Both the position numbers and the translations under genes were made by a program. Below the pieces are notes generated by a model that saw nothing but the letters and a program-made list of their open reading frames with translations, searched no databases and was not told where the DNA came from. This document shows, piece by piece, positions 1 through 5,175 of a DNA stretch of 59,525 nucleotides (positions are counted from its first letter, which is position 1; every line of letters starts with the position of its first letter). The DNA comes from Planosporangium mesophilum (lineage in GTDB: Bacteria; Actinomycetota; Actinomycetes; Mycobacteriales; Micromonosporaceae): the NCBI RefSeq assembly GCF_016863255.1, contig NZ_BOON01000058.1:1-59525 (forward strand), in the 5' to 3' direction.

Positions 1-1139
1 CCACTCTACCCGATGTCTCAACCTGTTCCAAACGGACCTCGGATCCAGCTGAAACGGTCACGCCATCGGGCGCCAGTCAAGGCCGGCGCTGTCCGCGCCA
101 CCCGCCTGGATTGGCCCGCCACCTCCGGAATTCGATCTCCGGCGGCCCCGCGGGCAAAGAGAAAGTTACGCCCGCCCAACCATGATCGTCAAATCCGACG
201 ACCTTGTCCTGCGTCACATCCCAGCCACGACCGTCCGAGATGGACGATCCGTTGGCCGGTGACCAGGACGCCAGGTGGGCGAACACCATCCTCAACCCCG
301 ACCGGGGGAACTTCATTCCCCTCGACCGGCAGTCCAACCCGCATCGAGCAGCAGCCCGACACCGAGCAGAGGACCCTCACATCAACGCCGTGGACCAGGA
401 AGTCATTCCCGCAACCGGCAACCGCGACCGCACGGACACAGCCGTACGAGCGAGCGACTGAGAGTTCAACTCCAACCGCCGGAACTTCATTCCCGCGGCC
501 GGCGCCCCGACCCTGTACCGAGAAGACCCGGCACCGGATCCGACGCTTCTACGTCAACGCCGCAGTCCCCGGAACAATTCCCCCGACCAGACGACCGCCG
601 GACGGGCGAACCCGCACCGGCGGTGGAAGTGGTTCAACACCGCCTCTGTCCCCAGCATTCCCCGCATCCGTGCAGGGAGATGGCAAGGTCACGACGGCAG
701 ACCACATGCATCGTCAACGCCATTGGCCGGGTAGACGTGTCCTGAGCTGGCGCCTAAGGACTCAACACCGAACACGCGGATATGGTTCCCACGACCGGTG
801 CCCGGTCTCGTGCCGAGTGACTCGGCCCGGTCCGGGCTGCCTGTGTGTCAACGCCGTTTCCTCGGGAGACATCCCCGGACCAGCGGCCCGCTGATGCGGA
901 CCAGCCGTGCGGTCGGAACGACGCAGGGAGGTCAACGCCGACGAGAGAACGCTCATTCCCGCGTCCCGCCCGGGGCCGCCGGAAGCTCGGCAATGCCCCG
1001 GTCGACGCCGAACGAGTAGCGATCCTGTTGAGATCCAGAGCTTGTCGGCAGGCACGCGCGGGGCGCACGTCCGGCCGCCCTGGGCGACCGACGATCCGAT
1101 TCGCTGCCCAGTGCACCCGTTGACCGGGAACCGGCAGGG
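1..1139. other. Non-coding region left of ndh
   Basis: No convincing gene lies here. The open frames that cross the region have no family resemblance, are rich in Arg, Pro and Thr, and overlap each other in several phases. What is visible instead is a regularly spaced motif array at 292-959, described separately. Weaker, possibly decayed copies may exist near 18 (TCAAC followed by GGATCC 18 bases later), 714 and 1002. Bases 1-291 otherwise show nothing recognisable. The region lies downstream of ndh, on the strand that reads out of the window to the left, so any transcript started here would serve a gene beyond base 1. Confidence 0.6.
292..959 (-). promoter_or_regulatory. Array of eight GGAAT-N18-GTT promoter-like units
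   Basis: Read on the minus strand, eight units match GGAAT or a one-base variant, exactly 18 bases, then GTTGA. Plus-strand positions of the -35/-10 pairs are: 315-319/294-296, 405-409/384-386, 489-493/468-470, 577-581/556-558, 657-661/636-638, 785-789/764-766 (GGAAC), 871-875/850-852 (GGGAT) and 955-959/934-936. Unit starts are 80-90 bases apart, except one 128-base gap holding a decayed copy at 714 (GGACA with 19 bases). Outside the two boxes the spacers differ, apart from a common CGGY just before GTTGA. The published SigR/SigH consensus of actinobacteria is GGAAT-N18-GTT, so the simplest reading is a ladder of ECF-type promoters all firing leftward. A decayed tandem repeat with another role is the alternative. 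Confidence 0.6.
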
Positions 1140-2519
1140 TCAAGAGACTTCCACGCGAGTAGCCGGGTCCTCTGCTGCTCTCCGCAACACCGTACGGGCG
1201 AGCACCTGCTGGATGGTGGCGGTCCGCTGGGAACGGCCGCGACCGATGAAGCTGACGAACCAGTGCAGCACTGCGGTGACGCGGTTCTTGAAACCCACCA
1301 GGTAGAGCAGGTGGACGGCGAGCCAGAGCAGCCAGCCGACGAAGCCGGACAGGCGCACCTTGCCGACACTGGCGACGGCCGAGAACCGGGAGATGGTCGC
1401 CATGCTGCCCTTGTCGTGGTATTGGAAGGGCTGCCCGGTTGGCTTGCCGTTCAACCGGCGGACGATCTGGCCGGCGGCGTGCTGGCCGCTCTGGATGGCG
1501 ACCTGCGCCACACCGGGCAGTCGGTTGAGGCTCATCAGGTCGCCGACGACGAACACCTCCGGGTGCCCGGGCAGGGAGCAGTCCGGTTCGACCATGACCC
1601 GGCCGGCCCGGTCGGTCTCCGCGCCGGCCGCCCGGGCCAGCAGCGGGCCGAGCGGGGACCCGGCGACGCCGGCAGCCCAGATCTTGGTCATGGCCTCGAT
1701 GCGGCGGCGGTTGCCTGCCGAGTCGACGACCTCGATGCCGGTCTCGTCGACGCCGACCACGGTGGTCTGCAGCTCGACCTCGATGCCGAGGCGGTGCAGC
1801 TGGCGCAGCGCCCGGGTGGACAGGTGATCGCCGAACGAGGGCAGGACCGCCGGCGCACCGTCCAGCAGCAGGACCCGCGCGTTACGCGTGTCGATGCGGC
1901 GGAAGTCTCCGGGTAGGGCGCGGTGAGCCAGCTCGGCGATCTGCCCGGCCATCTCCACGCCGGTCGGACCGGCGCCCACCACGACGAAGGTCAGCCAGCG
2001 ATCGACCACAGCCGGATCGCTTTCCAACTCGGCCAGTTCGAACGCCCCGAAGATCCGCCCACGCAGCTCCAGCGCGTCGTCGATGCTCTTCATACCGGGC
2101 GCGTGTTCGGCGTACTCGTCGTGGCCGAAGTACGACTGGGTGGCGCCGGCAGCGACGATGAGGCTGTCGTAGCCGACGGTGTAGGTGGTACCGGTGGTAC
2201 CGGGTGCGGTGACGGTGGCGGTACGGGTGGCGAGGTCGATGTCGGTGACCTCGCCGAGCAGTACCCGTGCGTTGCGCTGCCGGCGCAGGATCTCGCGGGT
2301 CGCCGGAGCGATCTCACCTTCTGACAGGATGCCGGTGGCGACCTGGTACAGCAGTGGCTGGAACAGGTGGTGGCCGGTGCGCGCCACGATCGTCACATCC
2401 ACCGGTTCCCGGCGCAGTGCCTTGGCGGCGAACAGGCCGCCGAAGCCCGACCCGATGATCAGCACCCGGTGGCGCGGGCTCTGACGGCCGTCCTGCCCTG
2501 GCGAGCTCCCGTCATCCAT
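1140..2519 (-). CDS. ndh: Type II NADH dehydrogenase (NDH-2)
   Basis: Predicted single-subunit, non-proton-pumping NADH:quinone oxidoreductase of the inner face of the membrane, 459 residues. It has two Rossmann motifs: GSGFGG at residues 23-28 for FAD and GAGPTG at 182-187 for NADH. The VFVVGDLMSLN segment near the end is the usual FAD-contacting GD motif, and the hydrophobic C-terminal stretch (FVGWLLWLAVHLLYLVGF) is the membrane anchor of the family. An upstream ATG at 2567 would add 16 residues, but the ATG at 2519 is preferred because GGGAGAAGG sits just before it and the extra residues match nothing in the family. It reads leftward into the motif array. Confidence 0.93.
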   Translation of the reverse strand: MDDGSSPGQDGRQSPRHRVLIIGSGFGGLFAAKALRREPVDVTIVARTGHHLFQPLLYQVATGILSEGEIAPATREILRRQRNARVLLGEVTDIDLATRTATVTAPGTTGTTYTVGYDSLIVAAGATQSYFGHDEYAEHAPGMKSIDDALELRGRIFGAFELAELESDPAVVDRWLTFVVVGAGPTGVEMAGQIAELAHRALPGDFRRIDTRNARVLLLDGAPAVLPSFGDHLSTRALRQLHRLGIEVELQTTVVGVDETGIEVVDSAGNRRRIEAMTKIWAAGVAGSPLGPLLARAAGAETDRAGRVMVEPDCSLPGHPEVFVVGDLMSLNRLPGVAQVAIQSGQHAAGQIVRRLNGKPTGQPFQYHDKGSMATISRFSAVASVGKVRLSGFVGWLLWLAVHLLYLVGFKNRVTAVLHWFVSFIGRGRSQRTATIQQVLARTVLRRAAEDPATRVEVS

Positions 2520-2595
2520 GCGCCTTCTCCCGTCTTTCGTCCCGGTCGTTTCCACTGGGGTACCCATGCGGCGCCGTTACCCCACTGCCCCGGAC

Positions 2596-2614
2596 GGTGA
2601 TGGTCCCCATCACC
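2596..2614. promoter_or_regulatory. Perfect 8-3-8 inverted repeat, operator candidate
   Basis: GGTGATGG and CCATCACC are separated by three bases. It lies about 80 bases before the ndh start, in the divergent region between ndh and the SDR gene at 2849. No T-run follows, so a repressor site is more likely than a terminator. The regulator is unknown. Apart from this and the repeat at 2672-2690, nothing is recognised in 2520-2848. Confidence 0.4.
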
Positions 2615-2671
2615 TCCTGGAAGGCACGAACCGGCAGGTCAACTTGGGACAGCAATCACATTCCGGACGGT

Positions 2672-2690
2672 GGCGGACCGGCGGTCCGCC
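2672..2690. promoter_or_regulatory. Second perfect 8-3-8 inverted repeat
   Basis: GGCGGACC and GGTCCGCC surround the centre GGC. It has the same geometry as the repeat at 2596-2614 but a different sequence, and sits 76 bases away, centre to centre, in the same divergent promoter region. It may be an operator for one of the two genes or a leader hairpin of the SDR transcript. Confidence 0.35.
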
Positions 2691-2848
2691 GCGCTTGAGG
2701 TTCAAATCCGGTCTCCGGAGTGCCCTCCGGTACCGGACACCGCCCCGGGGTGGGCAGCGTCCTTGCGGGAGCAGGCGCCATGCCAGGACCCACGGCCGGA
2801 CAGTACCCAGCACGGGCCGGGGAATGTGGGGGGCGTTGAATAAGGCTT

Positions 2849-3673
2849 ATGGCATTTGACCTTGAAGGGCGGGGCGCGACCGCGGTTGTCACCGGTGCGT
2901 CCTCGGGGATCGGCGCGGTGTACGCCCGTGAGCTGGCCAAACACGGGTGGAACCTGGTACTGGTCGCGCGCCGTGGGCAACGGCTGGACGACCTAGCCGC
3001 TGGACTGTCCGGCATCAAGGTGGAGACCGTCACGGCGGACCTCGCCAAGCAGGACGACCTGGACCGCGTCGCGGAGCGTGTCGCCGAGGACGATGTCGCG
3101 CTCCTGGTCAACAACGCCGGGATCAACGGGTACGGGTCGTTCACCGACGTCGAACCCGGGGTGCTGCAGCAGGTGATCGCCGTGAACGTCGTCGCGCCCA
3201 CGTTGCTCACCCGGGCCGCGGTGCCCGGCATGCTCGACCGCGGACGTGGCGCGGTCGTCAACGTCGCGTCTCTGCTCGCCTTCGCCTCGGCGATGCCGCC
3301 GAATCCCCTGCCGTACCGGGCGACCTACGCCGGCACCAAGGGCTACGTCGTGACGTTCACCCGTACCCTCGCGGCCGAACTCGGTGATCGCCCGGTGCAA
3401 CTTCAGGTGCTGTGCCCGGGACTGACCGCGACGGAGTTCCACCTGACCACCGGCATGGAGTCGGTCGGCGGCCGTGAAGCGCGAGTGCACGGCGACGGTG
3501 GCATGCCGGCCGACGACGTTGTCGCAGCGTCGCTGGTAGGCCTGGAACGCGGTGAACTGGTCTGCGTGCCCGGCCTTGCCGATCCGGCCGCGCTGGAGCA
3601 ACTCACCGATGTTGAGGCCCTCCTACGAGCCGCGAGCAGATCCCCTGGCAGGGCGCCGCGCTACCGCGCATAA
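2849..3673 (+). CDS. Short-chain dehydrogenase/reductase
   Basis: A 274-residue classical SDR, predicted to be a cytosolic NAD(P)-dependent oxidoreductase of unknown substrate. The coenzyme motif TGASSGIG is at residues 15-22, NNAG at 88-91 and the catalytic Tyr160-x-x-x-Lys164 in YAGTK. The catalytic Ser is Ser147 or Ser141, in a segment slightly longer than usual. ARR at 40-42 after the second beta strand suggests NADP(H) preference. The start codon follows AAGG closely, a modest ribosome binding site. It is transcribed away from ndh and converges with the methyltransferase at 3763. No neighbour names a pathway. Confidence 0.88.
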   Translation: MAFDLEGRGATAVVTGASSGIGAVYARELAKHGWNLVLVARRGQRLDDLAAGLSGIKVETVTADLAKQDDLDRVAERVAEDDVALLVNNAGINGYGSFTDVEPGVLQQVIAVNVVAPTLLTRAAVPGMLDRGRGAVVNVASLLAFASAMPPNPLPYRATYAGTKGYVVTFTRTLAAELGDRPVQLQVLCPGLTATEFHLTTGMESVGGREARVHGDGGMPADDVVAASLVGLERGELVCVPGLADPAALEQLTDVEALLRAASRSPGRAPRYRA

Positions 3674-3733
3674 CCCCGGGCGCGGGCGGCCGCTCTCGGA
3701 CGCGACGGTCACGCCCGAGGGCCGAGCGCCTTC

Positions 3734-3758
3734 GCCGGCCACGCCAGGCGTGGCCGGC
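3734..3758. terminator. Bidirectional hairpin between convergent genes
   Basis: GCCGGCCACGCC and GGCGTGGCCGGC form a perfect 12-bp inverted repeat around one base. It lies between the convergent stops at 3673 and 3763, so it can serve both transcripts. There is no T-run, as is common in high-GC actinobacteria. Confidence 0.7.
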
Positions 3759-3762
3759 GCAG

Positions 3763-4383
3763 CTACGCCGGTCGCAGGACAGCGACGAGAAAGTCTGACC
3801 GCTCGGTGAAGGGACGTAGGTCCCAGGTCGACAACAGCAGGTCGGTCAGCAGCCCGCTCGCTTCGACGTCGGTGAGGAACTCCTCGACGTCATAGCCCCG
3901 TGCGGTGCCGAACCCCACGACGACGCGGCCGCCGTCGCGCAGATGTACTCGCATCCGGCGGAGAATGTCGCGACGGGTACTCGGGGCGACGAACGTCATC
4001 ACGTTGCCCGCGCAGACAACGGCGTCGAATCCCTCGACGATGCCCCGAGCCGGAAGGTCCAACTCCGACAGGTCCCCGACCAGCCAGCGCGGGCCCGGAT
4101 GATCCTGCTGAGCCGCGGCGACGAGTACCGGATCGAGGTCCACGCCGACGACCTCATGGCCAGCCGCGGCCAGAAACGATCCCACCCGACCCGCGCCGCA
4201 ACCGGCGTCGAGGACTCGTGACCGCCTCGCGAGCATCGCGTCGATGAAACGCGCCTCGCCGGCCAGGTCCTCGCCCGCGCTGGCCATCGACCGGAAACGC
4301 TCGATGTACCACTGCGAATGACCCGGATCGGCCTCGATGAGCTTGATCCACCCGTTCTGTTCACCCACGTCGCCCATCCTCAC
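3763..4383 (-). CDS. Class I SAM-dependent methyltransferase
   Basis: A small methyltransferase of about 206 residues. Motif I, DAGCGAGRVG, lies in the first third, the acidic end of strand 2 is GVDLDP, and the motif-IV segment FDAVVCAGNVMTF follows. The substrate is not predictable. The frame stays open much further upstream, but the extension is a shadow over the DevR-like gene. GTG at 4383 is preferred because AGGA lies seven bases before it, while the ATG at 4377 has GAGG directly abutting it. It is divergent from the regulator at 4540. Confidence 0.82.
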   Translation of the reverse strand: MRMGDVGEQNGWIKLIEADPGHSQWYIERFRSMASAGEDLAGEARFIDAMLARRSRVLDAGCGAGRVGSFLAAAGHEVVGVDLDPVLVAAAQQDHPGPRWLVGDLSELDLPARGIVEGFDAVVCAGNVMTFVAPSTRRDILRRMRVHLRDGGRVVVGFGTARGYDVEEFLTDVEASGLLTDLLLSTWDLRPFTERSDFLVAVLRPA

Positions 4384-4539
4384 ACCATTATCCTGCCCGG
4401 CCACATCCAGGCCCTCGGTCACGAACGGCCGTGCGATGTCAGGCTCCGGAGCCCAGCATTGCGGGCCTGAACACCAGGACATACAGCCCACCCGGTCGCG
4501 GCGGGCCCGGCCCGGCGGCGCATGGGGTACAAACGACGC

Positions 4540-5175
4540 ATGATCCGGGTGTACCTGCTCGACGACCACGAGGTCGTCCGGCGTGGCCTGCGCGACCTGC
4601 TCGAGGCCGACGGCGACATCGAGATCGTGGGCGAGTCCGGCTCGGCGCTCGACGCCGGGCACCGCATCCCGGCGCTGCGCCCGCACGTCGCCGTGCTCGA
4701 CGCCCGACTGCCCGACGGCAGCGGCATCGACGTCTGCCGCGACATCCGCTCCGTGGACCCCACCATCCAGGCGCTGATCCTCACCTCCTACGAGGACGAC
4801 GAGGCGCTGTTCGCCGCCATCATGGCCGGCGCCGCCGGCTACGTCCTCAAGCAGATCAAGGGCACCGACCTCGTCGACGCGGTCCGCCGGGTCGCCGCCG
4901 GCCAGTCCCTGCTCGACCCCGCCGTCACCGCCCGCGTGCTCGACCGCATCCGCCGCGGCCCCGACCAGCCCGACGAGCTCAAAAACCTCACCGAGCAGGA
5001 ACGACGCATCCTCGCCCTGATCGCCGAGGGGCTGACCAACCGCGACATCGCCCAACGCATGTTCCTTGCCGAGAAGACCGTCAAGAACTACGTGTCGAGC
5101 CTGCTGGCCAAGCTCGGCCTGGAGCGGCGCACCCAGGCCGCCGTGCTGGCGGCGAAGCTGCTCCACAAGCGTTAG
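4540..5175 (+). CDS. DevR/DosR-like NarL-family response regulator
   Basis: A 211-residue regulator with a receiver domain (DD at 8-9, phospho-acceptor Asp54 in [10 protein letters not shown], the signature Lys in YVLKQIKG) and a C-terminal LuxR-type HTH ([20 protein letters not shown], then [17 protein letters not shown]). The resemblance to mycobacterial DosR/DevR is close along its whole length, including Asp54 at the same number. DosR responds to hypoxia, NO and CO through the DosS/DosT haem kinases. No sensor kinase is adjacent. An in-frame ATG at 4522 would add six residues, but the 4540 start matches DosR. A link to the CO dehydrogenase genes far downstream is possible but untested. 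Confidence 0.88.

Follow-up and report, generated by a model that had tools for sequence, protein, structure and literature searches.

Synthesis of rRNA sets growth rate, and its usual driver is the housekeeping sigma factor. Tandem promoters before rRNA (rrn) operons are known, and the rrnB P1 promoter of Escherichia coli is read by the heat-shock sigma factor. The locus described here resembles rrnB P1 in that an alternative stress sigma factor may sustain rRNA synthesis under stress, but rrnB P1 is one promoter and belongs to a different sigma family, whereas here we find an array. In mycobacteria, rrn operons located downstream of murA or tyrS have multiple-promoter regions (HMPR), with several promoters ahead of the operon (Mycobacterium kumamotonense, PMC10218544). 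Each M. kumamotonense operon is described with one or two promoters, classed as sigma-70 type, and the -35 box of one of them is likened to that of SigD; here, in contrast, a single ECF-type motif recurs in a long ladder. The motif itself, GGAAT-N18-GTT, is shared with promoters of SigR from Streptomyces coelicolor and of SigH from Mycobacterium tuberculosis and Corynebacterium glutamicum (PMC2375139, PMC10012870). In the available portions of these two papers such promoters are described at stress genes, while here the prediction from sequence is of as many as eight in series before rRNA operons. Among the open-licence papers listed as literature matches, none described arrayed ECF or SigR promoters at rRNA operons, and a precedent for a one-motif ECF-type promoter ladder at rrn did not appear.

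We analyzed a ladder at the start of a 59,525-nucleotide stretch of Planosporangium mesophilum DNA (the window), which is the entire contig C58 of a 6.62-Mb draft assembly of 103 contigs (G000). On balance, we favor the view that the ladder consists of tandem SigR/SigH-class ECF promoters upstream of an rRNA operon that lies beyond base 1 of the window. If so, ECF promoter ladders before rrn would couple the supply of ribosomes in one actinomycete lineage to a redox sigma factor.

RESULTS

An array of eight SigR-type units at the contig end

The minus strand of positions 292-959 carries eight units of the form GGAAT-N18-GTTGA, in which the first box is exact in six, GGAAC in one and GGGAT in one, while the 18-base separation and the GTTGA end are exact in all eight (Table 1). 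Start-to-start distances are 90, 84, 88, 80, 128, 86 and 84 bp, with a decayed copy inside the 128-bp interval. We compared these counts with 5000 dinucleotide shuffles of bases 1-1000. The relaxed pattern GG[AG]A[TC]-N18-GTT occurs eight times on the minus strand (shuffle mean 0.134, maximum 3), and GGAAT-N18-GTTGA occurs six times (shuffle mean 0.0018, maximum 1). Outside the array, we found no GGAAT-N18-GTT on either strand in the rest of the 59.5-kb window. The original prediction had proposed both an eight-unit ladder with N18 throughout and a decayed copy near position 714; with positions rechecked, both are borne out, the ladder far above the shuffled expectation.

Table 1. Features of the array and its surroundings in the window
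Feature	Positions	Strand	Description
Candidate housekeeping-type rrn promoter	3-31	-	TTGGAA-N17-TAGAGT, at contig edge; assigned by eye
Array 3' flank	1-290	-	Common to the other three array contigs; partly shared with DNA upstream of relatives' 16S rRNA
Open frame	13-894	+	293 aa, overlapping the array
Candidate housekeeping-type promoter	163-195	-	TTGACG ... TAACTT; assigned by eye
Unit 1	292-319	-	GGAAT-N18-GTTGA, ECF/SigR-type; closest to contig end
Inter-unit spacers	315-936	-	Six of them folded; in the presumed transcript, most could adopt a hairpin
Unit 2	382-409	-	GGAAT-N18-GTTGA
Unit 3	466-493	-	GGAAT-N18-GTTGA
Unit 4	554-581	-	GGAAT-N18-GTTGA
Unit 5	634-661	-	GGAAT-N18-GTTGA
Decayed ninth unit	714-742	-	GCGTTGA retained, GGAAT gone
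Unit 6	762-789	-	GGAAC-N18-GTTGA
Unit 7	848-875	-	GGGAT-N18-GTTGA
Unit 8	932-959	-	GGAAT-N18-GTTGA
NDH-2-like pyridine nucleotide-disulphide oxidoreductase gene	1140-2567	-	Upstream neighbor of the array

Many open frames like the 293-aa frame that overlaps the array arise in GC-rich DNA. Tandem Repeats Finder returned six rows, none of them in the array region, and an Rfam search of bases 1-5000 gave a single match that lay outside the array and under the gathering score. We also considered a CRISPR array, which is ruled out, as the repeat copies are just 66-86% identical and not near-identical.

Boxes and their separation are conserved while spacers diverge

We compared arrays from genus Planosporangium (whose genomes here are P. 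mesophilum; P. flavigriseum TBRC 198, G022; a MAG labelled Dactylosporangium sp., G073; and G053) and from Micromonospora pattaloongensis DSM 45245 (G008). When we allowed separations from 8 to 30 bases in GGAAT-Nk-GTT, 50 of the 66 occurrences in nine Planosporangium arrays had k=18, with 16 at all other lengths together, and the reverse strand held two occurrences in total, neither at k=18. Similarly, 32 of 35 occurrences in seven M. pattaloongensis arrays had k=18, and the reverse strand had none at this length. In between-genome local alignments of the arrays, identity was 96.7% in the core boxes, 54.1% in the N18 and 60.6% in the remainder, a comparison that BLAST word seeds bias somewhat towards the boxes. 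Conservation extends to bases that were not part of the pattern used to pick units: across 52 units, G stands immediately before GGAAT in 96%, GG stands one base ahead of GTT in 88-90%, and GTT is followed by G in 94% and then by A in 73%.

The original prediction had named conserved spacers with drifting boxes as the pattern that would speak against promoters; the arrays of related genomes have the opposite, with the boxes conserved and the spacers not. We consider it likely that the units function as promoters. A non-functional growth of repeats, by unequal recombination between rrn loci, could account for the near identity of the P. mesophilum array contigs C58 and C83 (95% over 257 bp) and for the one decayed unit, but copies within the array are only 66-86% alike while boxes and spacing stay fixed, and we regard this explanation as hardly probable.

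Arrays very likely lie before rRNA operons

The window array is one of four in the P. mesophilum assembly, all at contig ends and all directed off the contig: C58 and C59 carry eight units each, and C35 and C83 six each, for a total of 28. Moreover, all 18 matches to a two-unit pattern in this genome fall on these four contigs. Contigs break at repeated operons that an assembler fails to resolve, and a search of the whole assembly found no 16S rRNA. The ends of C35, C58, C59 and C83 look like collapsed rrn operons. Bases 1-300 of the window are 81-89% identical to each of the other three array contigs over 155-236 bp.

As a comparison set, we took the DNA upstream of 16S rRNA in 40 genomes that represent 20 other Micromonosporaceae genera; 54 regions were fetched and one of 317 bases (L109) was left out as too short, giving 53. 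With E up to 0.01, the 3' flank of the array in the window finds matches in 12 of these 53 regions; in L080, for instance, the match is some 575-650 bp ahead of 16S. On contig C35, about 15 bp separate the end of a tyrS match from the array's first unit, and the tyrS/array stretch matches 18 of the 53 regions, as is likewise the case for C4 of P. flavigriseum, where the gene beside the array is tyrS by NCBIfam, and for C273 of G073. This rrn-type tyrS neighborhood, present as well on C29 of G053, is absent from the window contig, where the NDH-2-like gene is found instead. The mycobacterial rrnB operon follows tyrS, according to the M. kumamotonense report (PMC10218544).

In M. pattaloongensis, the array stands directly before the rRNA leader: contigs C8, C13, C24 and C28 pass from the array into a boxA leader, and they match 41, 42, 41 and 43 of the 53 rrn-upstream regions, partly via adjoining genes. 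A further contig of this genome, C21, matches 13 of the 53. On the other side, at E 1e-10 none of the 53 regions is matched by C58, C59 or C83, by C15 or C56 of P. flavigriseum, by C523 of G073, or by C12 or C15 of M. pattaloongensis, which tells against the reading that we favor. We provisionally assign C58, C59 and C83 to rrn because of the flank that they share (window bases 1-300).

Taken together, the arrays are very likely placed before rrn operons, and an rrn operon probably lies beyond base 1 of the window, as judged from the shared flank and the tyrS synteny of C35. The original prediction had also suggested that the array might switch a gene lying to its left. This suggestion fits; the gene itself, given the shared 3' flank, the tyrS synteny and the boxA contigs of M. 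pattaloongensis, is probably an rRNA operon that is missing from the assembly.

We considered that the units might instead act as a decoy, binding and titrating SigR holoenzyme while hardly transcribing. That 28 units are gathered on four contigs, which hold 17 of the 24 GGAAT-N18-GTTGA sites in the genome, would suit such a sink, but a decoy needs neither placement before rrn nor uniform orientation towards it, and the -10 box and the bases that follow it are conserved too. Thus, we consider a decoy very unlikely.

As a separate observation made by eye, a similar GC-rich motif (CCGGCAGG...CCGG...CCGGCCTG) often comes after the family's housekeeping-type rrn promoters, about 200-420 bp before 16S in the comparison regions (L065-L118).

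SigR is the best candidate for the sigma factor

The consensus of SigR has been published as GGAATN18GTT (PMC2375139) and that of C. glutamicum SigH as gGGAAta with cGTTgaa (PMC10012870); the array motif equals the SigR consensus. A SigR model search of P. mesophilum gave 17 matches, one of them above the cut-off (348 bits), and this match is adjoined by RsrA (97 bits). A GGAAT-N18-GTT site precedes the SigR match by about 290 bp, although it coincides with the beginning of a longer open frame, a point against the favored reading. The trxB gene of P. mesophilum has GGGAAT-N19-GTT 46 bp upstream. The reading of the units as SigR/ECF-type promoters, proposed at the outset, is thus supported by sequence and comparison: N18 on one strand, conserved boxes, a match to the SigR consensus, the presence of sigR-rsrA and the sites before sigR and trxB. 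While other ECF factors exist, SigR is the best candidate, and probably the right one, for the array.

If SigR is responsible, RsrA would release it under thiol-oxidative stress and perhaps also during spore germination, and SigR-RNA polymerase would start at many serial sites, adding transcription into the rRNA operon, such that ribosome synthesis could continue while the housekeeping promoters are weak. Early germination in S. coelicolor brings a roughly 10-fold increase in sigR expression (PMC4367926), a candidate condition besides thiol stress.

Several other sites of this type were noted in the P. mesophilum genome. The site at the start of the longer frame in the sigR-rsrA locus (L358:969-2319, contig C5) could point to autoregulation, or else to an alternative start. 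The stricter pattern GGGAAT-N17-CGTT occurs 17 times genome-wide. The arrays account for 14 of these; of the other three, one precedes a SigB-like sigma factor gene, another precedes a SecA gene and the last is elsewhere. Both gene assignments come from matches below model cut-offs, and SecA is truncated by the locus edge. Two SigR-type sites, 192 bp apart on the minus strand (L342:1309 and 1501, contig C5), lie upstream of the SigB-like gene, and the strict site before SecA is on the plus strand (L343:1502, contig C30).

Predicted hairpins in the inter-unit spacers

Folding gives a stem of four pairs or more in 28 of the 31 non-redundant Planosporangium spacers, compared to a fraction of 0.61 among shuffles; on the presumed transcript the mean z is -1.36 (standard error 0.21), against -0.55 for the opposite strand. 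The count for M. pattaloongensis is 14 of 18 spacers (0.66 of shuffles), with z of -0.75 on both strands, and in Micromonospora 7 of 12 do (0.51 of shuffles), with z of -0.43 and -0.48. All of these are single-sequence folding statistics, and an alignment of 36 spacers (MAFFT with RNAalifold) predicted no common pairs.

These hairpins raise the idea, also put forward in the original prediction, that each unit yields its own short RNA, here of about 50-80 nt and ending at its own hairpin. The excess of stems and the strand preference in Planosporangium are what one would expect of such RNAs, but no common structure emerges by RNAalifold, the M. pattaloongensis spacers have no strand preference, the Micromonospora signal is small, and the hairpins, by eye, have no T runs after them. 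We therefore hold short RNAs to be quite improbable as the function of the array, and retain tandem promoters directed into rrn as the favored reading.

Distribution of the array and a second use in Micromonospora

We scanned for the two-unit pattern and found it in 181 of 354 genomes of the family, in 12 of 44 genera, with some genomes having a single match. A scan across the class found it in 8 of 394 genomes, three of which belong to Micromonosporaceae; the other five had one match each, which we take as chance, and a reversed control gave one match. None of the 53 rrn-upstream regions from the 20 other genera holds a tandem pair within 1300 bp; therefore the array before rrn is known only from Planosporangium and M. 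pattaloongensis, a narrow arrangement that counts somewhat against the favored reading. In a position-weight scan of the same 53 regions, at a cut-off of 20.6 (the 10th-percentile training score) there were no hits in forward, reverse or shuffled sequence, at 9 there were 3, 1 and 7, respectively, and at 7.5 there were 4, 2 and 4, with a top single score of 15.2 (L070). The fourth Planosporangium genome, G053, has no two-unit match; a single intact unit follows tyrS, plus a decayed one by eye, which likewise fits less well with a ladder before rrn. Intact units thus number from 1 to 8 per array, and form a natural series in which tandem promoter number could be set against output.

Ladders of the same type were also found away from rrn. 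In three Micromonospora genomes, ladders of two to five rungs at the loci that we read precede dispersed genes for secreted-looking proteins, and one array of M. pattaloongensis likewise precedes such a gene. A contig scan gave at least 116 stretches, of which 80 are listed, 50 in Micromonosporaceae and 30 in unrelated taxa. Among the 50 listed Micromonosporaceae loci (within L218-L297), a muramidase-like motif follows in 24 and a C39-like motif in 7; another 17 have fewer than 700 bases downstream, and two, one of them in P. flavigriseum, have neither motif.

These ladders bear on the identity of the sigma factor. They precede cell-wall-type and not thiol genes, and this may point to another ECF factor with a consensus near that of SigR, one that would read the units and serve the resumption of growth (germination and wall remodelling) and not thiol stress. 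Consistent with this idea, 31 of the 50 listed loci are of the muramidase-like or C39-peptidase-like kinds, with 17 too short to judge, and many ECF-like stretches exist in the P. mesophilum genome, as seen from the 17 SigR-model matches, one of them above the cut-off. However, the array motif is that of SigR itself, and trxB in this genome has nearly the same site, differing by a 19-base spacer. We consider another ECF factor unlikely, if not negligibly so, and keep SigR as the preferred factor.

Tentatively, the two kinds of loci may be uses of one portable module of Micromonosporaceae in which SigR-type promoters recur about every 70-90 bp. This module would stand before rRNA operons in Planosporangium and M. 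pattaloongensis, bringing ribosome synthesis directly under a redox-sensing ECF sigma factor, with a transcribed hairpin in most Planosporangium rungs as a pacing or processing element, while in Micromonospora it would drive dispersed cell-wall hydrolases. If true, stress or germination would be tied to both wall opening and ribosome building.

As to the genes themselves, the Micromonospora loci L149-L167 have ladders before dispersed, multicopy genes of the muramidase-like and C39-peptidase-like types. The C39-like type matches Pfam Peptidase_C39_2, and the muramidase-like type, for which no Pfam or NCBIfam family matched, resembles solved muramidase-type chains (8b2h, E 4.6e-13). P. mesophilum has 10 matches to the muramidase-like protein, yet its two-unit matches are all on the array contigs.
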